Shown in pieces: positions 7,488-22,943 of a stretch of 23,108 bases of DNA. The position numbers and the translations under genes were made by a program. This DNA is from a virus. The stretch lies in IMG/VR virus record IMGVR_UViG_3300018424_000268, positions 1-23,108 of that record; one strand, given 5' to 3'. Below the pieces are notes generated by a model, which searched no databases, had not been told where the DNA came from, and saw nothing but the letters and a program-made list of their open reading frames with translations. Position 1 is the stretch's first letter. Each line of letters opens with the position of its first letter.

Positions 7488-7870
7488 AATGCGTTAAAGC
7501 TAAGCGTGATATGGGGCAGGACTGTATATCAGTAGGATTACTCCACCCTATATCTAATAGAGAGCAGCAAGCCTACTATCCTGATGTGCATAAGTCTATC
7601 ATGGAGAATGGGATGGAGTTCCCGTTGATTGGATATCTCACTACGATAGAAGAGTGGGATGATCTAGCTAAACGTAATCACTTAGTACTACCACCACCAA
7701 CAGGTTACACTCCAGAACAGATTGTAATTCAAGTTCGTGGCGGCAATAAGCGTCTCAGATATGCCAGAGAAATTGGCTACACACACATTGATTGCTATGT
7801 ATCTACTGATCTAGATGAAGTTGCCCAACTCATGCTAGAGCAGGGCAAGTGGTACAAGACTACTTCTTAG
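7484..7870 (+). CDS. ParB/sulfiredoxin-like domain protein 2
   Basis: The 128-residue product carries the ParB/Srx-like pattern: SIMENGMEFPLIGYL near 38-52 and GGNKRLRYAREIGYTHID.. at 86-103. The G-x-K-R and A-x-x-IG elements lie where the G-x-x-R and A-x-x-LG elements of the copy at 5311 lie, and both share GYTHIDC, so the two are probably paralogues. The start overlaps the previous stop (ATGA). It is the last gene of the plus-strand block, and its last 11 bases overlap the end of the giant minus-strand gene. A role in DNA binding or nicking is possible but not shown. The N-terminal Cys residues (C3, C14) are unlike the other copy. Confidence 0.78.
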   Translation: MKCVKAKRDMGQDCISVGLLHPISNREQQAYYPDVHKSIMENGMEFPLIGYLTTIEEWDDLAKRNHLVLPPPTGYTPEQIVIQVRGGNKRLRYAREIGYTHIDCYVSTDLDEVAQLMLEQGKWYKTTS

Positions 7871-10800
7871 CACCCAACATCTTCATCTGTGCCCACTGCA
7901 TCAACTGTCCTGCAGTCTTCACTTTATTAAACACACCGGGGTTACGTTTAATCTGACCTTCACTCAGTACTTCTGAGATTGGTGTGTTCGGTTTAGCTCT
8001 AGCTACAGCCACTGCACCAGATGGTCCTGCGAAGTGAGCAAGATATAAGTTACTACGGGTAGCATTCACACCCTTCTTCTTTAAGATGTTCTTATTCTCT
8101 TCCATCAACTTACGTGCCATGTAGCGTGAAACTTCTGGGTTACGTCTGAACTCCATGTAGTCTCCCTTCTGCTGCTTCAACTCTGGCATGTAGCGAGTAA
8201 CCATACTATCCCATGTCTTCGGTACGAATTGATACAGACCGAGAGCACCAGAAGTTTCAGCATAAGCATTAGTATTATTGCTTGATTCAATCTCAGCAAG
8301 ACGATCTAAGTATGCTTCTTCTTCATTCGGTACTTGAGCTACAGGTTTCTGTGGAGCTTGTGCTTGACGTACTTCTTGTACTTGTTGTACTGGTTGTTCT
8401 ACTGGTGCTGCATCCATAGTATCGTACTCCGGTGCTATCTCTTCGTTAAGATTACCTTCAGCTAAACCACCATCAGCAAATGTCTCGGTGTTATTTCCTT
8501 TCTTATCGAAACGGAATCGTGGATCATTTGGTGAGGTACGCTGTACACCCTTAGCTAAAACTAAAGGACCAACTTGTATTACTTGTTCTGCAGCTACTAC
8601 AGGTTCTAATGTATCTTTATCGTAGAAGTAAGAAGCACGATAAGGATTCATCCCTACTTGAGTCCACTCAGGATCATCAATAAGTTTCTGTGCTACATTG
8701 AACAGCTCATCTGAATCATGGTTTTCCCACTGACCGTAGATACGACCGATAGTAGTCTTGCTCTTACCTTTAGCAATGTTAATTGCAGCTTGTGGCTGAG
8801 TACCAAACTCAACATTATTTAATACTGATGTCTTACCGTATCCTAATGATTTACCTTTGGTTGTCCGTCCACCACTTTCGTGTAGAGAAACAACCCAAGT
8901 ATCAAAACCTTCGTATGCAGGTATGTCTAAACGAGAAGCTACTTCAGTGCCATCAGGTATGGATTTATTCAAACCAATAATACCTGTGCTTACTTTGTTT
9001 TCGTCAAGAGAAAATACAATCTCTTCGAATGTAGGCATCTTAGTTACTTCAGTAAATTTAGTTGGTGGGCGTAATGCAGCAGCAGTAGATCTAAACTCAT
9101 CTCCAGTAATCTCACCTGCGAATAATTTCTCAGCTTGCTCTTTTAATTCAGGAGTTTGCTTTTGCTTTTGATTTACTTTGTTAGTTTCACGCCACGCTTT
9201 CTTATCGTCTAATGATTTACCAAGAACATCATAAGCAGCTTTACCTTCATTACCTGCAATTGGTAACGTCTTACTCGGCAGGGTATCTAAGAAGTCTTTC
9301 TCACCTTCCTTAGCCATGTCTAAAATATCTGACATCTGTAAGCGAGTATTCAAACCCTCTAGAGACCAACCGTAAACACTATTACGCTCAATGAAGTTAC
9401 TAATGTCTTGTACTTCTCTCAGCCCTTCCTTACGTACAAACGTACCGTCAGAAGTTTCAAGATTCTTAAGTCCTTTGTATAGAGCGTTAGTACTAGCAAG
9501 ACCAAACATATCTTTTAGTTTTTCTGCTAATTGTTTGTAGTACTCGACAGCTTTACCTACCCACTTACCCTGTACTTTGTATTGGTTACGTAAGATATCT
9601 GAACCATTGACAGCCCAGAACTCACTGGGATTGGTGTATTGGTAGTCACCAGATTTAAGTACACCGTCTTTAGCATACTGCTTCATTCGCTTAGTCAAAG
9701 CATCTAAGTCTGGACCTTTAACATAAGGAAGCATCATTACATCTGCAAGTGCTTCAGCTCTTGATTGCTGTCCTGCTTTCTTTGACAATTTAATTTCTTT
9801 TTTAACCGCATCTTCCCATGACTTACGGATACCATCACGAATATCAGAAGGCAGCATACGCTCAGTGTGGTGCAACGTTTCGTGCATCACTAACTCAGGA
9901 ATCTGATCTCCTTTACTCAGCTTAACAAGTCGTTCAGAGATAGAGTAAACACCGCTAGTACCTTTCTCTAAATCACTAACAGCAGTAATTGAAATATCAT
10001 CTACTAACTTACGGTTCTTATCCACAAACCACAAAGCAATATCCGCTGACTCATCAGAGATATAACCTTTATCCACAAAGTCATTAACACGGGAAGCATA
10101 AGCACGATACCCACGTACTCTATCGCGATCTTTCTTTAGAGTTCGGAATGCTCGCTGTGTTGCTGCTTTCTTTTGCTGATTGAATGCAAACTCTGCAGCA
10201 TCATTAATATCAGCAGTACCATTTTGAATGTAGTGAAGAATCTTCTTAGCTTCTGATTCAGTGCGTGGGTTATCAGCAGTAGATTGCCAAATCTTTTCTC
10301 GTTGCGGTCTATCACTTGGATTCTTAGGATCTACAAACTGAGCATCGTACTCTTCCATTTCACGTTTAAACTGATCACGCTCAAACGCATTCTCAAGTTC
10401 ACGGTCAGTATTCTTTGCATAATCTAATTGACCGGGATTGTTGTATATCTCATCTACGTAATCTTTGTACTTCTTACTACTCGCTCTAGCTAAAGCAGCA
10501 GTACCTTTTGCAGCAGCACCTATAGGTAAAGATAGACCAGTAAACTCACCCATGCCTGATGCTACTTCACGTTGCTTATCAGTCATGAACTCATCACCAG
10601 TTACTTTTGGTAAGTATTCTTTTACATCTTCTGTTGTTGGTAGTACTGTCTCTTCCTGTATGCCACGTTGGAACCCTTCACCGAATGAATCTTCACCTGT
10701 AGCACCTTCGTACACACCACGACCAAGTGCTTCAATATCACCCGCACCACCAAGCATTGCAGCAGTAGCACCACGAGCCATATGCTCATACGTCTTACCT

Positions 10801-13800
10801 GCACGGTAAATGGTTTCAGATAGTGGACGCTCTTCTGGCATATCTACGCCTTCAGTAGATACTCCTTCTGGATCATCAGCAGCAGCCATACCACCTTTAG
10901 CAAATGGAGTTACTCTTGCTCTTGAGTCATACCCCGGTTTACCGCGCCCGTGTATCCACGATGGTGTGTGCTTATAATGAATACTAAATCGAATAGCATT
11001 GTACTTATCATCACCAAAGTTTACGTACTGACCAGTTTCTTCTGCATATTCTTTTGCTTTATCACGAACAATACGACCGCTAGCATCACGGATATCTTCT
11101 TGCTTAATAAGCTCACCTGCTTGTGTCTGAATAATAGTCGGATAAGCAGCCCAACTACCATCACTTAATTGACCCGCACCCATACGGTGAGTTTCTTCGT
11201 ATTCGTATCCTTCTTTATCTGTAGCACGTAGTGAAGGTGAGTTTACATCTTTCATACGTTGAATAAAATTCTTATCAGAATTCTCTTCGATTGCTTTTTC
11301 ATAAAGATCTATGTCTTCTTTAGTTACTGGTATGTTATAGTAATCTGGTCCTTTTTTATCAGCTACGCCGCCTTTATTAAATAACTTACGTGCTTGATCA
11401 AGCATGCCACCGAGTTTAAATTTCTTCTGTGCTTCTTTAGTTACGTCAATTGCTTGTTCAATTAATTCAGGTTGAGCACTACCACGTTTAGCACTTTGCT
11501 CATATAGCTTTTGTAGTTGCTTTATCTTTTGCTCTTCGTCCATACCGGCAAACATCTTCTGCTGATCTAAGTTGACAGCATAAGTACGGAAACCAGTTAA
11601 GAAAGCAATTAAAGATTCTTCTACTGTCTTAGGTTTAGACGCAAAAGGAGATAGCTTCTTCTCTGCTTTACCTAAGATATGATCACCCTGAAGTACTTTA
11701 ATAATCTTCTGATCTGACTCAGAGTTTCTGACTGACTGAATAAAGTCATCCATAGTAGCAAGCAATCTGAGATTCTTCAGATCGTGTGCTACTGTTTCTG
11801 GCATCTCAACACCAACAAAATTCTGTTTTAATTTTGGATGTAGTTTTTGACCTGTAAATAAATCAGTTACATATCCATCTTCGTCAGCAGAAATACGCTC
11901 ATAGATTAATTTTATACCGGGATGTAAGTTATCTTTAAATACACGAGCAGGAGCAGCAGCTAACTTCCATGCATCAGCAGCAGGTAACCAACCACCAAGA
12001 ATAAAGTATCTTGGATCGCCAGTCTCTTCATCAATCTTAACTTTAGTTGGATAGTTCTCAATCATCCAAGAAGCTAAGTAACGCTCATTAGTATCTTCTT
12101 CTGATACTGCTGCTTCAATCTCTTGACGTAGGGTATCGATAGCTTTGTATCGACCCGGCTTCTTAATCATCTGCTCAATCTGGAATGGTACGTTCTTACG
12201 TGTCCATGTGTAGAAAGGCATGATGCGTTTCATTACATCTTGTTCGAACTGAGTGAGGTCACTGTAGTCAAAGAGTGTTTTACGTACACGAGCAGCAGCT
12301 TGTTCTGGAGATAGTCCTTTGTTAAGACCATCCAAGAAGTTAGCCATACGAGCATTGTTCTCTAAGCCTTCACCAATACGCTTACCGATCTCAATAGCTT
12401 TGTTCTCTTTAGATAGAGTCAACCACTTAGCATCACCCATCTCAGAGCGTAGAGTGCTTTCAATGTCGGTAGCCATGAAGCCCTTACCAATAATACCCTG
12501 CTCATCCATCATGTCTCTGAGTTGAGTATAGGTATATTCGGTACCATCTTTAGTTTTAAACTTAGTGTACGCAGGTAGTGGACCTTCACTAACAGTAGGT
12601 GTTCTGCCTGTCTTACCCCATCTTGGTGGAGTAATCTGAGAACCCATTACAGCTTCTTGAATCTTAGCTGCTTCTTGGTAGAACTTAGGATCAACATCCA
12701 TAACAAAGTTATTCCATACGTTACCTACTTCATTTCGGAAGTGGTACGATGGGAAGATAGAAAGCGTCCAAGCCTTCCACCAGTTAGTAACTTGGTCAGC
12801 AGTATTCAAGAATTTATTTATTTCTTGAGGGTCATAGATCTTATTTAAGTTTCCATCTACAAACTCAACGATCTCACGATCCATTACGTAGCCTTCAGTC
12901 ATTGGGTTGTTAGAAATTTCCCAACGATCCCAACCTTTACGATTCTTTTTAAGGTAACGTAATGCTCCAACAACAGTTGGATTCTTTGTCTTTGGTTGCC
13001 ATCCTGATTTCTGTGCTGCTTGAATAAGCTTCTCAGGGGCAATAGAAATATTATTAGCAGGGTCAATAATCTGATCAGCAAGATCACGTGAAGCAATAGC
13101 ACGATAGTGTTTACTATCACGTAGTGCTTGAGCTATAGCAGGATCAGAGTAGAAGAAACCATCTTTAAATACCTTACCTTCATAACCCGGAAGCTCTCCG
13201 CGTTTAGCCATGTCGTTAATGTCATTGATAGTTAACCCTTCCCATTCCTCATTACGAGCAATAGTAGAGCTGTGCTTACCTGACATATTGGTAGGACCTT
13301 CACCACCTTCTGCAATTGGCTTGTAACCTTTAGCTTCACGCTTTTCATTAATTGCTTTACGAGCATCAGGAGTTACTGCACGATTGAAGTAAGCTAACAG
13401 TAAAGCATCATCCTCATCACCCACACGAAGCAGTGGCTGCTCAGACAATGGTGTGATGGTTACACCTGCATCAATTTCTTTTGCAAGTTGATCTGCATTG
13501 CGTTGAGAGAGTGACCATACTTCATAGCGAATGTTGTCATCTTTAGAGAGTAACTCAACAGCTTCATCACTAAGCTCAGCGAGATTAACGTTATTAACAC
13601 CACCACGCTCTACAGCTTCAGTGATGAACATCTCCACTTCTTTTTCTGTAGTGTTTGTTTCACGTGCAAATACTTTAATACGATCTTGGAACTCACGTCC
13701 TTCACGTATAGCTTGAACACGACCAGAAGCAATTAAGTTTAAGAAGTTCTCACGAAGCTCTTCTACTTTTGGTTTATTCTTAAACTGGTTTTTAGTGCTG

Positions 13801-14720
13801 AACAAATTCCATGCGTAGTTAGCAGCATCAGTAAGAGACTGACCTGTTTTGGTTTTAGTTAGTACGTCTTTTGCTTTTTGCTTAGTGGTGTTTGCTGCTT
13901 TAGCATACTGATCTAATACAGCATCTGGTATAAGGATCTTACCCTTCTTAGTAAAAGACAGAATAGGATTAGTGTAAGTAACAGGGTCAATCGCAACATC
14001 AACACCAAACCCTGCAGTGTATGCTAATGCATCCAAACCTGCAGTATTAGAAGTGTAAGCGTCTACTAAAGGTTCAAATGCACTTTTTAAACTAGCATTA
14101 AGATCTTCTCTTGCTTCTTGTTTTTCTTGTTCAGTATCAGCCATACCAATCTTAATTAAGTCAGCATACACACCGGACTTAGCTATGTTAATTGGCATCA
14201 TACCTACTTGATACTTCTTAACAGCCTCTGAGAATAGTGAATCAACGCCTTTAAATACTGTATTAAGTGTTGGATATTCTGTTGGGTTGTCTACAACTTC
14301 CTTAGCTTTCTTAGAGAAGTACTCACCCATCATTGGGTGCTGTTCACCACTAATACCTTTAGCAGCTTCTGCTTTAATAGTCTCTGCATCCTTACCTTCA
14401 AGAGTGGCAATTAAACCACTAGCAACAGCAGCTCTTGGACGGTCAACAACCTCTAATGCAGCAAACGGATTAACACCTACATCAGCTTCTACTTCTGCTT
14501 CAGCTATTGGATATGTACGCTCAGAAGTAACGTCACCAAAATCTGTAGTCAATGCTTCAGGTACTACAGGTTCTTCTGGTATTAAGAATGGATTAGCTTG
14601 GGCTACTGGCTGTTCTTCCTGAACTAAAAAAGGATTAGTATTTACAGTTTCAGGTTGAGTTACAACTGGAGTAACAGGTGCCGTTGGTTCTTCTTCAATA
14701 AGAAAAGGATTTTGCGCCAC
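7860..14720 (-). CDS. Giant virion/ejection protein with C-terminal lytic transglycosylase and internal HExxH
   Basis: This 2286-residue protein starts at a GTG (complement of 14718-14720), supported by an AGGAG 8 bases upstream. Visible parts in order: NPF-x-x-x-EE repeats at 4-49; a long helical region; a stretch at about 808-845 with LFDYSDLTQFE and PFYTWTRKN, of the kind seen in phage large polyvalent proteins; F-x-x-GG-x-A linkers at 1114, 1273 and 2081; an HETLH at 1613-1617, a possible zinc protease; a YGKTSVLNNVEF..QVGPLVLAK module before the last linker; and an SLT domain from about 2135, with catalytic E2145 in EIESSNN and GALGLYQFVP. By position it parallels T7 gp16, entering with DNA and cutting peptidoglycan. 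In T7 the SLT domain is N-terminal, here C-terminal. Protease activity is inferred. Confidence 0.9.
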   Translation of the reverse strand: MAQNPFLIEEEPTAPVTPVVTQPETVNTNPFLVQEEQPVAQANPFLIPEEPVVPEALTTDFGDVTSERTYPIAEAEVEADVGVNPFAALEVVDRPRAAVASGLIATLEGKDAETIKAEAAKGISGEQHPMMGEYFSKKAKEVVDNPTEYPTLNTVFKGVDSLFSEAVKKYQVGMMPINIAKSGVYADLIKIGMADTEQEKQEAREDLNASLKSAFEPLVDAYTSNTAGLDALAYTAGFGVDVAIDPVTYTNPILSFTKKGKILIPDAVLDQYAKAANTTKQKAKDVLTKTKTGQSLTDAANYAWNLFSTKNQFKNKPKVEELRENFLNLIASGRVQAIREGREFQDRIKVFARETNTTEKEVEMFITEAVERGGVNNVNLAELSDEAVELLSKDDNIRYEVWSLSQRNADQLAKEIDAGVTITPLSEQPLLRVGDEDDALLLAYFNRAVTPDARKAINEKREAKGYKPIAEGGEGPTNMSGKHSSTIARNEEWEGLTINDINDMAKRGELPGYEGKVFKDGFFYSDPAIAQALRDSKHYRAIASRDLADQIIDPANNISIAPEKLIQAAQKSGWQPKTKNPTVVGALRYLKKNRKGWDRWEISNNPMTEGYVMDREIVEFVDGNLNKIYDPQEINKFLNTADQVTNWWKAWTLSIFPSYHFRNEVGNVWNNFVMDVDPKFYQEAAKIQEAVMGSQITPPRWGKTGRTPTVSEGPLPAYTKFKTKDGTEYTYTQLRDMMDEQGIIGKGFMATDIESTLRSEMGDAKWLTLSKENKAIEIGKRIGEGLENNARMANFLDGLNKGLSPEQAAARVRKTLFDYSDLTQFEQDVMKRIMPFYTWTRKNVPFQIEQMIKKPGRYKAIDTLRQEIEAAVSEEDTNERYLASWMIENYPTKVKIDEETGDPRYFILGGWLPAADAWKLAAAPARVFKDNLHPGIKLIYERISADEDGYVTDLFTGQKLHPKLKQNFVGVEMPETVAHDLKNLRLLATMDDFIQSVRNSESDQKIIKVLQGDHILGKAEKKLSPFASKPKTVEESLIAFLTGFRTYAVNLDQQKMFAGMDEEQKIKQLQKLYEQSAKRGSAQPELIEQAIDVTKEAQKKFKLGGMLDQARKLFNKGGVADKKGPDYYNIPVTKEDIDLYEKAIEENSDKNFIQRMKDVNSPSLRATDKEGYEYEETHRMGAGQLSDGSWAAYPTIIQTQAGELIKQEDIRDASGRIVRDKAKEYAEETGQYVNFGDDKYNAIRFSIHYKHTPSWIHGRGKPGYDSRARVTPFAKGGMAAADDPEGVSTEGVDMPEERPLSETIYRAGKTYEHMARGATAAMLGGAGDIEALGRGVYEGATGEDSFGEGFQRGIQEETVLPTTEDVKEYLPKVTGDEFMTDKQREVASGMGEFTGLSLPIGAAAKGTAALARASSKKYKDYVDEIYNNPGQLDYAKNTDRELENAFERDQFKREMEEYDAQFVDPKNPSDRPQREKIWQSTADNPRTESEAKKILHYIQNGTADINDAAEFAFNQQKKAATQRAFRTLKKDRDRVRGYRAYASRVNDFVDKGYISDESADIALWFVDKNRKLVDDISITAVSDLEKGTSGVYSISERLVKLSKGDQIPELVMHETLHHTERMLPSDIRDGIRKSWEDAVKKEIKLSKKAGQQSRAEALADVMMLPYVKGPDLDALTKRMKQYAKDGVLKSGDYQYTNPSEFWAVNGSDILRNQYKVQGKWVGKAVEYYKQLAEKLKDMFGLASTNALYKGLKNLETSDGTFVRKEGLREVQDISNFIERNSVYGWSLEGLNTRLQMSDILDMAKEGEKDFLDTLPSKTLPIAGNEGKAAYDVLGKSLDDKKAWRETNKVNQKQKQTPELKEQAEKLFAGEITGDEFRSTAAALRPPTKFTEVTKMPTFEEIVFSLDENKVSTGIIGLNKSIPDGTEVASRLDIPAYEGFDTWVVSLHESGGRTTKGKSLGYGKTSVLNNVEFGTQPQAAINIAKGKSKTTIGRIYGQWENHDSDELFNVAQKLIDDPEWTQVGMNPYRASYFYDKDTLEPVVAAEQVIQVGPLVLAKGVQRTSPNDPRFRFDKKGNNTETFADGGLAEGNLNEEIAPEYDTMDAAPVEQPVQQVQEVRQAQAPQKPVAQVPNEEEAYLDRLAEIESSNNTNAYAETSGALGLYQFVPKTWDSMVTRYMPELKQQKGDYMEFRRNPEVSRYMARKLMEENKNILKKKGVNATRSNLYLAHFAGPSGAVAVARAKPNTPISEVLSEGQIKRNPGVFNKVKTAGQLMQWAQMKMLGAKK
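14574..14711 (-). repeat. Three NPFL-x-x-EE repeats at the N-terminus of the giant protein
   Basis: The first 50 residues contain NPFLIEEEP, NPFLVQEEQP and NPFLIPEEP at residues 4, 29 and 43, separated by Pro/Val/Thr-rich linkers, with a further NPF at 84. The spacing is uneven (25 and 14 residues) but the core is nearly identical. Such repeated short motifs in a disordered tail usually act as docking peptides for a partner. Confidence 0.85.
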
Positions 14721-17786: not shown

Positions 17787-19424
17787 TTATTTAAACGCTG
17801 CAAACAACGTAACGGCAGAAGAAGCAAGACTAGATATCTGCTCTCGCTTAGCTGCGTCTGTTGCTGCTTCGTTACCCAATGCTGCAATTGTTAAACGTGT
17901 CTGTTGATCTTGTGCATTCTCTGCAGATTGGAATGCCCAGTTAGCTGCATCACGATTCTCTTGCCATAAGAATGTCATTGCTTGGTTAGACAAGTTAAAT
18001 GCATTGATTGCGTTAGCTTGATTTACAGCATTAACACCCGCAGTGTTAGCTGTATTCAATTGTCTACGCCACTGTACGTTAGACTGTTCAATAGCAATTG
18101 CATTCTGTGTATTGAATTGATCACGATTAAATGCAAGCTGTGCATTAAATTGATCTGCTGCTTGTTTAGCTTGTAGATTAAGTTGCTGTGCTTGTAACTC
18201 ATTACCTGCTTGTAGTGCAGCACGTTGTTGAGCTAACTGTGAGTTGTACTGACTAGCAGCATCAGCACGTGCAGCATTATTAAGCGCAATGCTAGAGTTT
18301 AAGTTAGACATAAACTGCTGTGCTTGATTGACACTAGAGGCATTGAACTGTGCAGCAGCATTAGCGGCAGCTTGATCTGACAACATATTCTGCTGACGAA
18401 TCTGTGCATTAACTACAGATGCTTGTTGCTTGTTAGTTAAGTTCTGCATGTCGATAGCTAAGAAAGCCTTAGCATTCTCAACTTGTGCTTGCTGTTGATT
18501 AGACAGATTAGTCAAATCCATCTGCGCCATATTAGTAGCGTTAGTGATAGCAGCTTGCTGTTTGTTGTTGAGATTAGTTAATTGCAGAGTCTGCATGAAC
18601 TGGCTGTTAGCCAATGCAGTTTGTTGTTGGTTAGATAAACTAGCAAGATCCATCTGAAGTGCAGACTGAGCATTGTTCAGTGCTGCTTGTTGTTTGTTAT
18701 TCAGATTAGCTAAGAATGTCTGCTGTTGAGTCTGAGCATTCTGTTGTGCAATCGGTAATGCAGAAGTAACGATTGCATTCATGATTGCTTCTTTAGCTAC
18801 AGAAGACTTACCCATACCACGAGCAGCAAGTACAGCTTCAGCAGAAGCAAGTGCAGGTGCAGCCCAATCTGGTACATCTTTACCTGCAGAAGTAGCAAGT
18901 AAGTCTTCCATCTGCTTACTGACTAATGCTTCATCTGGTGTGGTACCAGTAGCAGCAGCCATAGTAGCGGCACTAGATAGACCCGCAGTAGCAGCGGTAG
19001 CCATCGTACCGGCACCTGCTTTAGTATCTTGAGCAGCTACGGCAGGAGCAGTAAGAGTACCAGTAGCACCTGTGACAGTCTGTGTGGGAGCAGCTTGAGT
19101 TGCACCGGTAACAGTAGGAGCAGTACCTGTAGTAGTTGCTTTATATGTCTGACCAGTAACAGCAGTTGGAGCACCAACACCAGTAGTCGTCATACCCGGA
19201 GCAGCAGCTAATGTAGGGGCAGTGACAGTACCTGCAGTAATAGATGGAGCAGTACCCATAGTGGCACCCTTCATCAATTCATTAGTCTGTACTGCTTGAG
19301 GAGTGTAGGTTTGTTTAGCTGCGGTTGGGATAGTAGCAGCAGGGTCAGTAAGAGCCTGTGTTACCTGCTTACCTACTTCAGTAGTAGCGTACGCTCCCGG
19401 TTTACTTTTGTCTGGTAGTGCCAT
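17787..19424 (-). CDS. Ala/Gln/Asn/Thr-rich virion protein with 22-aa tandem repeats (545 aa)
   Basis: The ATG shares a base with the stop of the tiny gene before it (TAATG). Residues about 55-150 are Thr/Ala/Pro/Gly-rich low complexity (repeated TAP, TVT and TGAT elements). A short folded-looking part (DEALVSKQMEDLL, VPDWAAPALASAEAVLAARG) follows. Then come five 22-residue repeats at 237-346, and after them a long Ala/Gln/Asn-rich helix with further imperfect repeats (ASQYNSQLAQQR, ADQFNAQLAFNR). There is no Cys, signal peptide or membrane segment. Late position and helical rod nature point to a virion or internal-core component; T7 gp14 is a position-based comparison only. The composition is unlike the rest of the window. 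Confidence 0.83.
   Translation of the reverse strand: MALPDKSKPGAYATTEVGKQVTQALTDPAATIPTAAKQTYTPQAVQTNELMKGATMGTAPSITAGTVTAPTLAAAPGMTTTGVGAPTAVTGQTYKATTTGTAPTVTGATQAAPTQTVTGATGTLTAPAVAAQDTKAGAGTMATAATAGLSSAATMAAATGTTPDEALVSKQMEDLLATSAGKDVPDWAAPALASAEAVLAARGMGKSSVAKEAIMNAIVTSALPIAQQNAQTQQQTFLANLNNKQQAALNNAQSALQMDLASLSNQQQTALANSQFMQTLQLTNLNNKQQAAITNATNMAQMDLTNLSNQQQAQVENAKAFLAIDMQNLTNKQQASVVNAQIRQQNMLSDQAAANAAAQFNASSVNQAQQFMSNLNSSIALNNAARADAASQYNSQLAQQRAALQAGNELQAQQLNLQAKQAADQFNAQLAFNRDQFNTQNAIAIEQSNVQWRRQLNTANTAGVNAVNQANAINAFNLSNQAMTFLWQENRDAANWAFQSAENAQDQQTRLTIAALGNEAATDAAKREQISSLASSAVTLFAAFK
18387..18716 (-). repeat. Five tandem 22-residue (66-bp) repeats in the 545-aa protein
   Basis: Residues 237-346 divide into five units of exactly 22 with the core NL-(N/S/T)-N-(K/Q)-QQ-A near positions 4-11. 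Units alternate between NLNNKQQ and SLSNQQQ or NLSNQQQ, as though a 44-residue pair was copied. There are no insertions or deletions. 22 is two hendecads (11 x 2), the period of a nearly straight coiled coil. At DNA level the period is 66 bp. Confidence 0.9.
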
Positions 19425-19893: not shown

Positions 19894-20352
19894 TTAAGAC
19901 TTGCCCAGATAGAATGAACCTGCAGCAAGAATACTTATTTTTAGCCACTCAAAGTGGACAATCGCGTTCTCTAGTCTTACGAACTCAGTGGTGGTACCAG
20001 TGGTATCTATAAGACCGAGTAAATTAAATCCCGTTTCTTTCTCAATTGGTACTACAATATCAAGACCAGTAAGAGAACCCATCATTGCCCATGCGCCCAA
20101 AGCGACCATCGACAACACAAAGATTCTCCGCGTCAACTTTGCGAAAGGATCGTTCCCAACACGAGCAGCAGCAGCGTCGGCAGCTTTGGTTGCTCGCTCA
20201 GAGGCGGCATCGGCTTCTTCGGTCTTAGCCTTCATAGCTTCAAGCATGAGCTTCTGTTGTTCTGCTTTAGCTTTCTGAGCTTGATCCATGAACTTAAAGA
20301 GACCGCCCATAGCAGCTCCACCGCCCATCGTTAGTAATTCTATAGGAATCAT
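19894..20352 (-). CDS. Holin-like membrane protein (152 aa)
   Basis: The product starts MIPIELLTMGGGAAMGGLF, with a possible short N-terminal hydrophobic helix. A coiled-coil-like stretch rich in Ala, Lys and Glu covers 23-63, followed by TM segments at about 76-95 (RIFVLSMVALGAWAMMG) and 136-150 (EWLKISILAAGSFYLGKS). The arrangement resembles the 3TM holin family of gene transfer agents and marine phages, from family memory only. Holins open the inner membrane at lysis. No separate endolysin is seen here; the only muramidase-type domain is in the giant virion protein. The start overlaps the EF-hand gene's stop (ATGA). Confidence 0.75.
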   Translation of the reverse strand: MIPIELLTMGGGAAMGGLFKFMDQAQKAKAEQQKLMLEAMKAKTEEADAASERATKAADAAAARVGNDPFAKLTRRIFVLSMVALGAWAMMGSLTGLDIVVPIEKETGFNLLGLIDTTGTTTEFVRLENAIVHFEWLKISILAAGSFYLGKS

Positions 20353-20678
20353 TTTTCCTCTCCTTTCTTATCTTTGCCTTTGACGTAAGCATCAGCACCA
20401 AAGAAAGCACCAACCACTACAGATACAGCCATAAAGTAAGTAGGAGCCATGTCACCGATTACGCCACTAGCATTACTGAACCCCAGAGCTTCGGTACCAA
20501 ACACGAATAGTGGGTATAGAAGCATACCGAAGAGAGCAAACCAAACCATCTTACGTTGTTGGTCACGCTTAGCATCTTCATCTTCCATCTCACGACGCTT
20601 AGACTCAAGATAGATCTCAAGCTCTTGTTGAGAAACACTGCCGTCTCCGTCAATGTCTGCTTTTTCAAACTCGGTCAT
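20349..20678 (-). CDS. EF-hand plus two-TM membrane protein (109 aa)
   Basis: A canonical EF-hand loop lies at 8-19: D8, D10, D12, S14, S16 and E19 (DIDGDGSVSQQE), with helices on both sides as expected for calcium binding. Two membrane segments follow, at about 44-66 (MVWFALFGMLLYPLFVFG) and 78-98 (APTYFMAVSVVVGAFFGA), then a Lys-rich tail. I chose the ATG at 20678, which overlaps the previous stop as ATGA. A GTG at 20690 with a weak GCAGG is the alternative and adds four residues. It sits directly upstream of the holin-like gene and may be a holin or holin regulator. The calcium role is inferred from the loop alone. Confidence 0.82.
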   Translation of the reverse strand: MTEFEKADIDGDGSVSQQELEIYLESKRREMEDEDAKRDQQRKMVWFALFGMLLYPLFVFGTEALGFSNASGVIGDMAPTYFMAVSVVVGAFFGADAYVKGKDKKGEEK

Positions 20679-20824
20679 TTCTTTAGACACTTACCTGCTT
20701 TCTTACACTTAGCAGGAGTCTTACAACCTTTACAGGGTTTAAAAGCAACAGCACCACCTTTCTTGTAACCAGTAGCTGCTTTTGATTTAGCCATACGTTG
20801 ACCACGTTTTGGATAATTAGGCAT
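20675..20824 (-). CDS. Tiny Lys-rich four-Cys protein (49 aa)
   Basis: The start overlaps the end of the previous small gene and the TGA overlaps the EF-hand ATG (ATGA). The product reads MPNYPKRGQRMAKSKAATGY, then KKGGAVAFKPCKGCK and a tail with two more Cys. The spacing C31-x2-C34-x5-C40-x5-C46 could hold one zinc ion. It also has a KKGGAVA stretch like the linkers in the giant protein. A shorter form could begin at the ATG at 20794. It is highly basic, with no membrane segment. Function unknown. Confidence 0.72.
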   Translation of the reverse strand: MPNYPKRGQRMAKSKAATGYKKGGAVAFKPCKGCKTPAKCKKAGKCLKK

Positions 20825-20957
20825 TTTTCTTTGCTCCTTTCTTTTTACCCCAGTTGTTTTTCATATCTTTGTAAGCTTTAGCACTAACAGTACTGTTCTT
20901 CTTACTACGTGAAGTACCTGCTTTCTTACGCTTGTTGATGTTCTTAACTAATGACAT
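20817..20957 (-). CDS. Tiny Lys-rich protein (46 aa)
   Basis: The ATG shares its last base position with the end of the preceding small gene (20957), and the stop overlaps the next start by 8 bases. The product reads MSLVKNINKRKKAGTSRSKK, continues NSTVSAKAYKDMKNNWGKK and ends GAKKNA. About a third of residues are Lys or Arg. It has one Trp and no Cys. The overlaps on both sides are the best support that it is translated. No family is recognised; DNA binding or packing into the virion is possible from charge alone. Confidence 0.7.
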   Translation of the reverse strand: MSLVKNINKRKKAGTSRSKKNSTVSAKAYKDMKNNWGKKKGAKKNA

Positions 20958-21226
20958 TACCACTTAACCTTATCTGCCCAGTAAGCAGCAGACATATTAC
21001 CTTTCTTAATGTTCTTAGCATGACGTGCTTTGAACGACTTCTTACGTGCTTTCTCTTTAGCAGTGCTTGGTGACTTACCTGCACCTTTGACACCCTGCTG
21101 ACCAAAGCGAATGATCTTCTCTTTACCGTCCTTACACGCTTTAACTACGTGAGACTTCTTAGGATGATTGGGTGTACGTTTTGGCTTGTTACACGCCATC
21201 TTCTTTTTGTCTAGTTTTTTTGCCAT
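20957..21226 (-). CDS. Small basic protein ending KKSFKARHAKN..AAYWADKVKW (89 aa)
   Basis: I chose the ATG at 21226 (MAKKLDKKKMACNK), two bases after the previous stop, over a start at 21274 that would lie within that gene. The product is rich in Lys and Arg. Its segments KKSHVVKACKDGKEKIIRFG, QQGVKGAGKSPSTAKEKAR and the KKSFKARHAKN end resemble a small protein seen in many marine phages, and I believe also in some giant viruses (recalled, not searched). It has no known function. C12 and C31 are the only Cys. It is probably a nucleic-acid binding or virion component. Confidence 0.8.
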   Translation of the reverse strand: MAKKLDKKKMACNKPKRTPNHPKKSHVVKACKDGKEKIIRFGQQGVKGAGKSPSTAKEKARKKSFKARHAKNIKKGNMSAAYWADKVKW

Positions 21227-21227
21227 A

Positions 21228-21662
21228 TCAATTTGCCAGTGGGTTGTTGAGTGCTTGTTGAATCTTGTCTTCAAGTTCTACTTTAGTGGCATCTACTTTG
21301 CCTTCGAATTTATCCATCTTCCCTTCAAAGTAAACTACCTTATCGTTTACTCGCTTTTCGATGTCGTAAGTTAATTGCTTTACGTCACGTAAGTTCTGCT
21401 CAATAGAAGTAAGAAGTGATTGTTGTGTCTCTATCTTAGTACTAGTCTGCTGCATCTGCTGCTCGTAACTTGCTAAGTCGAGTGATGCAATCTCCTCCAC
21501 CTTCTGATACATAGTGAAGCCACCGTAGAGAGCACCAACAATACTGGAAAGAAGACCGAGAGCAAGACCAAGTTGAGTAGGTGTAAAACGTAAGCCAAAT
21601 AAGCTGAGACGTTTATCAGCCAACCCTTCGATGTCGTCAAGTTTTTCTCCGAGATCTGCCAT
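21228..21662 (-). CDS. Single-TM coiled-coil protein (144 aa)
   Basis: The product has an N-terminal cytoplasmic-type part (MADLGEKLDDIEGLADKRLS), one membrane segment at about 29-51 (TQLGLALGLLSSIVGALYGGF), then a coiled coil at about 55-137. Within it two adjacent heptads repeat, FEGKMDK FEGKVDA (112-125). The N-in/C-out layout is like an inner-membrane spanin. The exported neighbour just upstream lacks a lipobox, so a classical two-gene spanin pair is not supported. It may instead be a membrane anchor for the exported proteins in the same run. It is joined to the upstream gene by TGATG. No enzymatic motif is visible. Confidence 0.8.
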   Translation of the reverse strand: MADLGEKLDDIEGLADKRLSLFGLRFTPTQLGLALGLLSSIVGALYGGFTMYQKVEEIASLDLASYEQQMQQTSTKIETQQSLLTSIEQNLRDVKQLTYDIEKRVNDKVVYFEGKMDKFEGKVDATKVELEDKIQQALNNPLAN

Positions 21663-22081
21663 CAGTTTTCAAATCCGTTAGACTGTAATCGACGTAGATT
21701 ATCTAATTCTTGTTGCAGCTTCTGTACTTCTAAGCGTCTACGACTAAGCTCTAGTTGGTACAGCGTATTGCAGTTAATTCTTTCTTTCGGTGCATCTAGC
21801 GGTATGATGATGCGAGCATACAAGCCAATGTCTTTACTCTGTGGATTGGCAGGGTCTTCACTACTAAATGGGCTTACGGCATTATTGACAATCCCAGTAG
21901 CTCCAAGCTCAAAGTTAGTAGCACCCCCAATGCTATTACGACAGTCAAGATCGCCTGAACGTATAGAATCCGATCCATAATTACTTCCCATATTCGGTAG
22001 CTGCAAGTTTAAAGAACTATTATCAGCATGTAGTACAGACATTACCGTAATGAGTAGTAGTGCAATGCCTGTTTTAATCAT
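21662..22081 (-). CDS. Exported protein with C-terminal coiled coil (139 aa)
   Basis: A signal peptide is clear: MIKTGIALLLITVMSVLHA, with cleavage after A19, and no lipobox Cys. The mature part has a DLDCRNSIGGATNFELGATG stretch, then DIGLYARIIIPLDAPKE, and ends with a coiled coil (LYQLELSRRRLEVQKLQQEL). Two Cys (C47, C104) could pair in the periplasm. The pattern Cys...LY-LEL..RR recalls an unnamed phage protein family. The start overlaps the previous stop (ATGA) and the stop overlaps the next start (TGATG), tying it to both neighbours. I suggest a periplasmic partner of the one-TM protein. Confidence 0.8.
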   Translation of the reverse strand: MIKTGIALLLITVMSVLHADNSSLNLQLPNMGSNYGSDSIRSGDLDCRNSIGGATNFELGATGIVNNAVSPFSSEDPANPQSKDIGLYARIIIPLDAPKERINCNTLYQLELSRRRLEVQKLQQELDNLRRLQSNGFEN

Positions 22082-22458
22082 TTAATCTTAGAACAGATCT
22101 TAGAAGATATCATCGGCTTCTTGTTACTGTTCTCTCTTAGCTTAGTTACTGAGCAAATGTATTTAGCTCTGACCACATCAATAGCATTTATGTAGATACT
22201 AAACTTAACTTTCGATAAGTGGTCTAAGCGCATAATCCTGTAGTCCGATACAAACTGTACGGGTTCCCAGTCTTTTGTGAACACCCCAATCTCATACCAG
22301 TTAACGTCACTACGCTTATTGAACAATTCCATCTGCGTCTTGTAGATACCCATTACGTGAGATACTTCCCACTTCGGATATGTCGGAGTCATGTCGTGTG
22401 CTGATGTAGTACCCATGCACAACATCATTGTGCACAGAGCTATTACTTTGCGATACAT
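22078..22458 (-). CDS. Exported beta-rich protein, possibly Ig-like/chaperone-like (126 aa)
   Basis: The signal peptide is MYRKVIALCTMMLCMGTTSA, with likely cleavage after A20. The mature part is beta-rich and begins HDMTPTYPKW. It contains ELFNKRSDVNWYEIGVFTKD and then WEPVQFVSDYRIMRL, ending with ICSVTKL and a second Cys at C122. The layout faintly recalls PapD-type or Ig-fold proteins that work with pilus subunits, and it lies next to a pilin-like gene, but no diagnostic chaperone motif is visible. It overlaps the pilin-like gene by 16 bases and the next gene by ATGA. Confidence 0.72.
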   Translation of the reverse strand: MYRKVIALCTMMLCMGTTSAHDMTPTYPKWEVSHVMGIYKTQMELFNKRSDVNWYEIGVFTKDWEPVQFVSDYRIMRLDHLSKVKFSIYINAIDVVRAKYICSVTKLRENSNKKPMISSKICSKIK

Positions 22459-22943
22459 TCTGCTTGTGCTACAGCACGGTAAGTGCCACCCGGAAATGCC
22501 TTCTCACCACCATTGACTGCAGAAGAATTAATCTTAAACCAAGTACTACCAGTAGCTGTTAAATCGTACTCACGAGTCTGATCGTAAGTGATTGAGTCAG
22601 TCTGGTAATCAGCCATAGCAACATCACCAACTTTATCTACTTCAACTGAGCCTGACCATACTGGTGTGTCATTCAGTGAAGGGCTTGCTGAGAAGCTTGT
22701 AGGGTAAGTAATACGTCCTTTGTAAGCATCTGCTAGTGATACGTCAAAACGTACGACTGGAACTACACCACCATCTGCAGGAGCAGTAGTCAGTGTGTAC
22801 GCATTAGGGTTGCCGTAGACACCTGCTGTATCCGTTTGGATAATACAGCGTGACTGTACTGTGCCAGTGATTGGTACGTCTTCAGCATAAGAAGAAGCAC
22901 TAAACACACACAATGCAGCTAAAGTAATTTGTTTCATTTCCAT
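22443..22943 (-). CDS. Exported pilin/spore-coat-U-like protein (166 aa)
   Basis: The signal peptide is MEMKQITLAALCVFSASSYA, with cleavage after A20. The mature part has two Cys (C33 near the start, C163 near the end), as expected for a disulfide in an Ig-like pilin or spore-coat-U fold. It is mostly beta: ITGTVQSRCIIQTD, VVPVVRFDVSLADAYKG, REYDLTATGSTWFKI and the last strand FPGGTYRAVAQAECI. The C-terminal strand with alternating hydrophobics resembles the end of CU pilin and SCPU domains. I do not recall a named phage function. It is the second gene of the minus run at the right edge, upstream of the other exported genes. Confidence 0.8.
   Translation of the reverse strand: MEMKQITLAALCVFSASSYAEDVPITGTVQSRCIIQTDTAGVYGNPNAYTLTTAPADGGVVPVVRFDVSLADAYKGRITYPTSFSASPSLNDTPVWSGSVEVDKVGDVAMADYQTDSITYDQTREYDLTATGSTWFKINSSAVNGGEKAFPGGTYRAVAQAECIAK

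Follow-up and report, generated by a model that had tools for sequence, protein, structure and literature searches.

A phage-borne block of exported genes with pilin-like and pilus-chaperone-like products

We describe a block of six genes encoding exported or membrane proteins that is common in aquatic viromes, occurs in several types of phages, and is nearly absent from cells. Two adjacent genes of the block, P1 and P2, encode proteins whose models resemble pilins and a domain of pilus chaperones, respectively. We tentatively propose that the products form a phage-specific complex, akin to a chaperone with its subunit, whose target is the envelope of the infected cell and whose most likely role is superinfection exclusion. 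Support is stronger for the fold relation of P2 than for any function.

Gene layout in the viral record

We analyzed a 23.1-kb viral record (23,108 nt; hereafter, the window), where the late-type genes, including P1 to P4, are on the minus strand (Table 1). The initial annotation had described three coupled genes with Sec signal peptides (P1 to P3), followed by a gene for a protein with a single transmembrane (TM) segment and a long coiled coil (P4). The four open reading frames were confirmed, as was the architecture of P4, and the coordinates, overlaps, and tests on homologues all agree with this description. P1 and P2 overlap by 16 nt, P2 and P3 by 4 nt (ATGA), and P3 and P4 by 1 nt. The four genes are the right-hand part of a longer block that is cut by the end of the window: the remaining tail of B is 65% identical over 57 aa to the B protein of a related locus (L002).

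A 545-aa protein (17787-19424) matches HMO-2011, the pelagiphages HTVC103P, HTVC104P, and HTVC115P, several roseophages, and Pseudoalteromonas and Vibrio phages. Hence, the record is probably from a podovirus of the HMO-2011 type. The window also encodes a 2286-aa protein (7860-14720), probably an internal virion protein, at the end of which we noticed by eye a lytic-transglycosylase-like segment.

Table 1. Genes of the block and its neighbours in the window.
Gene	Description	Coordinates	Strand	Basis or remark
B	C-terminal 57 codons	22934..23108	-	truncated by contig end; exported, ~300 aa in relatives
P1	exported, Ig-like with predicted pilin-like fold, 2 Cys, 166 aa	22443..22943	-	AF2 and Foldseek
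P2	exported, single-domain, PapD/MSP-like, Cys in predicted F1 and G1 strands, 126 aa	22078..22458	-	AF2, Foldseek, PHROG
P3	exported, 2 Cys, conserved SLNLQLP N-terminus, C-terminal helix, 139 aa, marker of the trio	21662..22081	-	phrog_37374
P4	N-terminal TM, long coiled coil, conserved C-terminal NPL, 144 aa	21228..21662	-	motif in homologues
P5	small basic protein, frequent neighbour	20957..21226	-	phrog_7595, E 3.1e-34
H1	EF-hand and TM, holin candidate, neighbour	20349..20690	-	weak EF-hand match
H2	TM protein, holin candidate, neighbour	19894..20352	-	weak GTA_holin_3TM match

Conservation of the block across viral records

The scans of IMG/VR with P1 and P3 resulted in 104 and 356 confirmed relatives, respectively, from which the best 80 of each were kept, and the loci were made non-redundant by P2 sequence. 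At least 105 non-redundant loci remain among the matches listed. In this set, 75 loci carry the complete block in the order A-B-P1-P2-P3-P4, and none of the 105 shows a different gene order. Most of the others are shorter stretches in identical order, as expected where contigs end. For 136 of the 140 members of the B cluster, P1 is the next gene downstream. The median dN/dS ranges from 0.069 to 0.135 over the six families, which reveals purifying selection and indicates that the genes are real. The genes flanking the block vary, with the major capsid gene in one set and tail-fibre-like, TerL, or cell-wall hydrolase genes elsewhere. Hence, the block appears to move as one unit. P5 sits before, after, or far from it depending on the locus and is probably outside the module. 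When 84,980 cellular genomes were scanned with the P3 alignment, only four MAG contigs matched, three of them from one Rhodobacteraceae bin; these four are presumed to be phage contigs.

Signal peptides were called by a simple rule of our own rather than by SignalP, and shuffled N-termini pass this rule in 11-20% of the cases. Among the homologues listed, it was passed by 101/102 P1, 100/107 P2, 104/108 P3, 83/87 A, and 84/97 B. Exactly two Cys are found outside the signal peptide in 100/102 P1, 100/107 P2, and 103/108 P3. A is the exported gene upstream of B in relatives; its product has ~186 aa and a C-terminal hydrophobic segment, with four Cys in 79 of the 87 listed homologues. B has ~297 aa. 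P4, which has a homologue in pelagiphage HTVC115P (gp49), ends in NPL in 96 of the 98 homologues listed.

Annotation has missed these families: all genes of the block are labelled “hypothetical” and one is sometimes uncalled. None of P1 to P3, A, and B could be placed convincingly in a Pfam family, and the weak Pfam and PDB sequence matches of P1 to P3 of the window (CbtA, RNaseT2L, coiled coil) were taken as noise. The PHROGs matched by the block are of unknown function, except for a weak “Ig domain” match of P1; the window P2 matches phrog_25455 (E 9e-4) and P3 matches phrog_37374 (E 1.1e-6). A likeness of P3 to CsgF (LNLQLPNxG vs NPNFGG) was dropped, since neither CsgF nor CsgG gave a match.

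Relatives in cultured phages

P1-P2-P3 are found in the same order in three types of Vibrio phages (~59, 84, and 111-126 kb), including the T5-like Morian and pVp-1, without A, B, or P4 alongside. These relatives were recovered by profile HMMs and missed by tblastn, which gave no matches for P1 and P2 in the phage collection. The marine HMMs match the Vibrio P1, P2, and P3 with E-values of 1.6e-7, 4.8e-7, and 5.5e-14, respectively, and phrog_25455 and phrog_37374 are the families of the Vibrio proteins. Once the signal peptides are removed, the similarity of marine and Vibrio P2 is weak (hhalign 4%); their homology is supported by the HMMER match and by phrog_25455. The Vibrio trio directly follows two large genes, presumed to encode tail proteins. 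In pVp-1 (L171:4821-6799), it is followed by a short lipoprotein, a T-family holin (PF11031, E 1.6e-46), and an endolysin. The P3 gene of Morian (L155:3980-4357) is uncalled and partly overlapped by gp143 and gp144; in pVp-1 it is called as gp079.

P3 is also present in large phages of other hosts: Klebsiella phages Miami and Eowyn, Serratia phage KpXa_1, and Erwinia phage pEa_SNUABM_56. The P3 HMM gave E-values of 1.4e-7 to 2.8e-11 for Miami, and the Eowyn and Erwinia proteins were assigned by phrog_37374. The order in these phages is P2 slot, P3, P1 slot, where both slots encode exported two-Cys proteins of the size of P2 and P1. Their homology to P1 and P2 was unsupported by profile-profile comparison, in which only P3 was significant, and they agree with P1 and P2 only in position, size, export signal, and the two Cys. 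In the annotated Klebsiella and Erwinia records, thymidine kinase, tRNA, or MazG genes lie nearby, and the stretches read contain no gene annotated for lysis.

Conversely, A is carried without P1-P3 by pelagiphages, roseophages, and an Achromobacter N4-like phage. Several marine carriers of A also have, at the place of B, a larger exported protein, as well as a P4-like protein with NPL at its C-terminus. We observed this A-B'-P4' cassette in pelagiphages and a Mediterranean phage (L156, L158, L160-L162, L166), in roseophages (L163, L164), and in Mosig (L157); B' has an acidic middle and is annotated as carbohydrate-binding in some of them. As the trio occurs alone in Vibrio phages, and A, B', and the P4-like protein occur without it, A-B-P4 and P1-P2-P3 are two sub-modules that are fused in the marine block.

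Lysis-type neighbours

At least one lysis-type gene (cell-wall hydrolase or candidate holin) was found within five genes of the block in 46 of the 68 marine loci; H1 and H2 are themselves only candidates for holins. H1 is within five genes downstream in 29 of 87 loci and H2 is downstream in 33 of 87, the PF11351 match of the latter (E 0.0029) being under our cut-off. H1 makes up 34 of the 779 near genes vs 2 of the 635 far genes, in a test where the families were chosen from the neighbours. A SleB-type hydrolase and a phage lysozyme among the neighbours were confirmed by Pfam. The N-terminal EF-hand-like loop and TM segment of H1 are conserved in marine phages, and from its sequence H1 is possibly a calcium-binding holin.

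This enrichment counts against superinfection exclusion and suits an accessory role in lysis, where the complex would help breach the outer membrane or time lysis in the manner of a spanin or an antiholin, with P4 as an inner-membrane coiled coil. The type-II TM and coiled coil seen in the P4 sequence fit the inner-membrane part of a spanin. The T4 antiholin RI is periplasmic, and the trio of pVp-1 lies upstream of a T4-type holin. It is thus conceivable, by analogy, that the trio times lysis in this lineage. However, the Rz match of P4 in PHROGs is weak (E 0.007), and neither within the block nor across it is there a constant, conserved lipobox gene. Some loci carry, immediately upstream of A, a gene for an Rz-like protein (phrog_739, E 8.7e-7) in overlap with one for a lipoprotein (L057:7385-8111; also L028, L038, and L061). 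These pairs led us to demote P4 as a candidate for the spanin, and the module is probably not simply one. A two-component spanin is also listed for pVp-1 itself (PMC6139136). Together with the position of P3 away from lysis genes in the Klebsiella and Erwinia stretches, the Rz-like and lipoprotein pairs weaken the initial suggestion of a lysis module if a pure lysis cassette is meant. The accessory role is a rival reading that we regard as rather unlikely.

Predicted folds of P1 and P2

The AF2 monomer model of mature P2, built from 85 sequences, has a pLDDT of 88.4 and a pTM of 0.77. When it was compared with the whole PDB by Foldseek, the first 15 matches listed were all pilus-chaperone entries (DraB, PapD, FimC, FaeE, Caf1M, SafB, and SfaE), some complexed with pilins, with E-values from 2.6e-4 (DraB, the best) to 2e-3 and TMq of 0.56-0.70. 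The highest TMq was against FimC 1qun (0.74). Mature P2 has ~105 residues and in the model the chain terminates right after the G1 strand. Hence, it corresponds to chaperone domain 1 alone and lacks the second domain. The invariant Cys81 and Cys101, placed by the model in F1 and G1, match the F1-G1 disulfide of FGL chaperones (PMC4133393) and may form the same bond; DraB is itself an FGL chaperone (PMC5625045). The modelled F1-G1 loop, with ~13 residues, is of FGS length. The donor-strand hydrophobic ladder of P2 is weak, with only partial alternation, and its first strand has no invariant Arg as counterpart of PapD R8 or Caf1M R20. A C-x-K/R motif at G1 is conserved among the homologues listed. 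At the sequence level, the PapD_N family (PF00345) had no match in 20 phage records.

The model of mature P1 (78 sequences) has a pLDDT of 94.5 and a pTM of 0.85. Its top seven matches in the whole PDB are chaperone-usher pilins (PapG pilin domain, CfaB, FimG, and FimF; prob 0.97-1.00, E 0.006-0.01, TMq 0.40-0.49), with mixed non-pilin matches further down, and its pilin TM-scores stay low at about 0.3-0.5. Against viral models, only unnamed proteins came at the top. Pfam gave no family for the window P1 at E up to 1 nor for the Vibrio P1 at E up to 5, and hence no spore coat U or fimbrial model. The P1 model places one Cys where the first strand begins and the other in the last strand, whereas the disulfide of fimbrial subunits joins strands A and B (PMC5625045). 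Residues 1-12 are conserved (VPIxGTVQS, with G7 and V9 invariant) and lie outside any modelled strand, and might serve as a short donor strand.

Given these scores, the assignment of P2 to domain 1 of a periplasmic pilus chaperone is good at the level of models, and that of P1 to a pilin-like Ig domain is suggestive. The two-Cys, pilin-like beta fold and the beta-rich neighbour anticipated from the sequence agree with these confident models, and neither fold turned out to be unrelated to pilins or chaperones. One may argue that the resemblance is generic to Ig-like beta-sandwiches and functionally meaningless, in view of the P1 scores (TM ~0.4-0.5, E >= 0.006) and of the non-pilin matches lower in its list. 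We find this improbable, because the adjacent P1 and P2 independently gave mostly pilins and, in the first 15 matches, only pilus chaperones, P2 has the F1/G1 Cys pair, and the adjacency is kept in the marine and Vibrio lineages.

Search for an exit route

No outer-membrane usher (PF00577) was found in any of 20 phage records, including the complete Vibrio phage Morian (126 kb) and HTVC115P, in a search whose E. coli control was positive. CsgG and CsgF were also absent from all 20 records searched for each, which include complete Vibrio and pelagiphage genomes. The lack of an usher had initially been taken as an argument against a classical pathway, and this still applies: with no usher in the 20 records, without domain 2 in P2, and with a Cys layout of P1 unlike that of pilins, a canonical pilus is unlikely.

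An usher-free filament or adhesin is possible, at the surface or in the periplasm, where P1 would polymerise by donor-strand exchange with the help of P2 and decorate or aggregate infected cells. The pilin and chaperone folds and the conserved strand-free N-terminus of P1 are compatible with it, and phage-encoded curli clusters, for which “sibling capture” was proposed, are a precedent (PMC9599517, PMC7029224). Yet, we consider it quite improbable: the exit route that it needs was not found, there is a single pilin-like gene, and purifying selection is strong. The initial view of an exported module with pilin-like and chaperone-like neighbours stood, whereas a surface appendage, a decoy, or a masking layer was not borne out. 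It is still less probable that these are virion or tail-associated proteins with incidental N-terminal hydrophobic segments, as the frequent structural neighbours might suggest, given the canonical signal peptides in nearly all listed homologues of P1-P3, the even Cys counts, and the occurrence of P3 with exported flanks in accessory regions of Klebsiella and Erwinia phages.

Proposed function

In the tentative model of superinfection exclusion, P2 would be the dedicated folding or holding partner of P1, to which it presumably binds, and P3 would join the two, since P1-P2-P3 is the part also found alone. Anchoring to the inner membrane would come from P4 and from the C-terminal hydrophobic segment of A, and B would be an exported extension. 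No pilus would be assembled. Instead, the complex would reside in the periplasm, act on a conserved envelope target, and alter the envelope of the infected cell, so that a second phage could neither adsorb nor inject. The position of exported accessory cargo by presumed tail genes, as for T5 llp, together with purifying selection, points to such an envelope-changing periplasmic complex. The predicted folds of P1 and P2 and the fixed order of the six genes, as of a linked unit, speak for the proposal. The low dN/dS fits a conserved target, the occurrence of P3 and its exported two-Cys flanks by thymidine kinase, tRNA, or MazG genes is as expected of accessory cargo, and the near-absence of P3 from cellular genomes indicates that the module is phage-borne. 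Against this proposal count the low TM-scores of P1, the weak ladder of P2 with no invariant counterpart of PapD R8, and the fact that only P3 is homologous in the Klebsiella and Erwinia phages.

As for how the proteins would work together, it is doubtful, but conceivable, that phages adopted the chaperone and subunit half of the chaperone-usher pathway as an usher-free envelope machine, in which the one-domain P2 holds P1 by donor-strand complementation. P3 or the N-terminus of P1 may supply the exchanging strand, while in marine phages A and P4 would tether the complex and B extend it. If so, donor-strand-type protein pairs would work without an usher. The block would also be a way, common to several types of phages and overlooked by annotation, to act on the Gram-negative envelope. 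Because cultured Vibrio phages carry the trio, its function is directly testable.

Comparison with known systems

The module resembles chaperone-usher systems such as DraB/DraE and Caf1M/Caf1 in having adjacent, exported pilin-like and PapD-domain-1-like proteins, but it is phage-borne, has no usher, and its P2 lacks domain 2. The placement of the P2 Cys in F1 and G1 is that of FGL chaperones, in contrast to the length of the modelled loop, and the Cys of P1 run from strand A to the last strand rather than from A to B as in pilins. With Rz/Rz1 spanins it shares, as far as the sequence shows, the N-terminal TM and putative periplasmic coiled coil of P4 and the frequent proximity to lysis-type genes; it differs by having no constant lipoprotein partner, and some of the phages have an Rz-like protein and a lipoprotein in addition.

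The position of the Vibrio trio is like that of T5 llp. Similarly to T5 Llp-type and other exported superinfection-exclusion proteins, the trio of T5-like Vibrio phages is exported cargo by presumed tail genes and beside a lipoprotein gene, except that the module has several proteins and, as a rule, no lipoprotein. We searched the literature on phage-encoded pilins, chaperone-usher systems, and spore coat U, and the titles and openings of abstracts, which cover few subscription papers, mention no such module. The nearest published parallel is the curli (T8SS) cluster of pelagiphages (PMC9599517, PMC7029224, PMC9004378). Its proteins are unrelated to those of the module, no tested component is in common, and neither CsgG nor CsgF was matched in the records searched; what the two share is to be multi-gene export clusters that move between families of marine phages.
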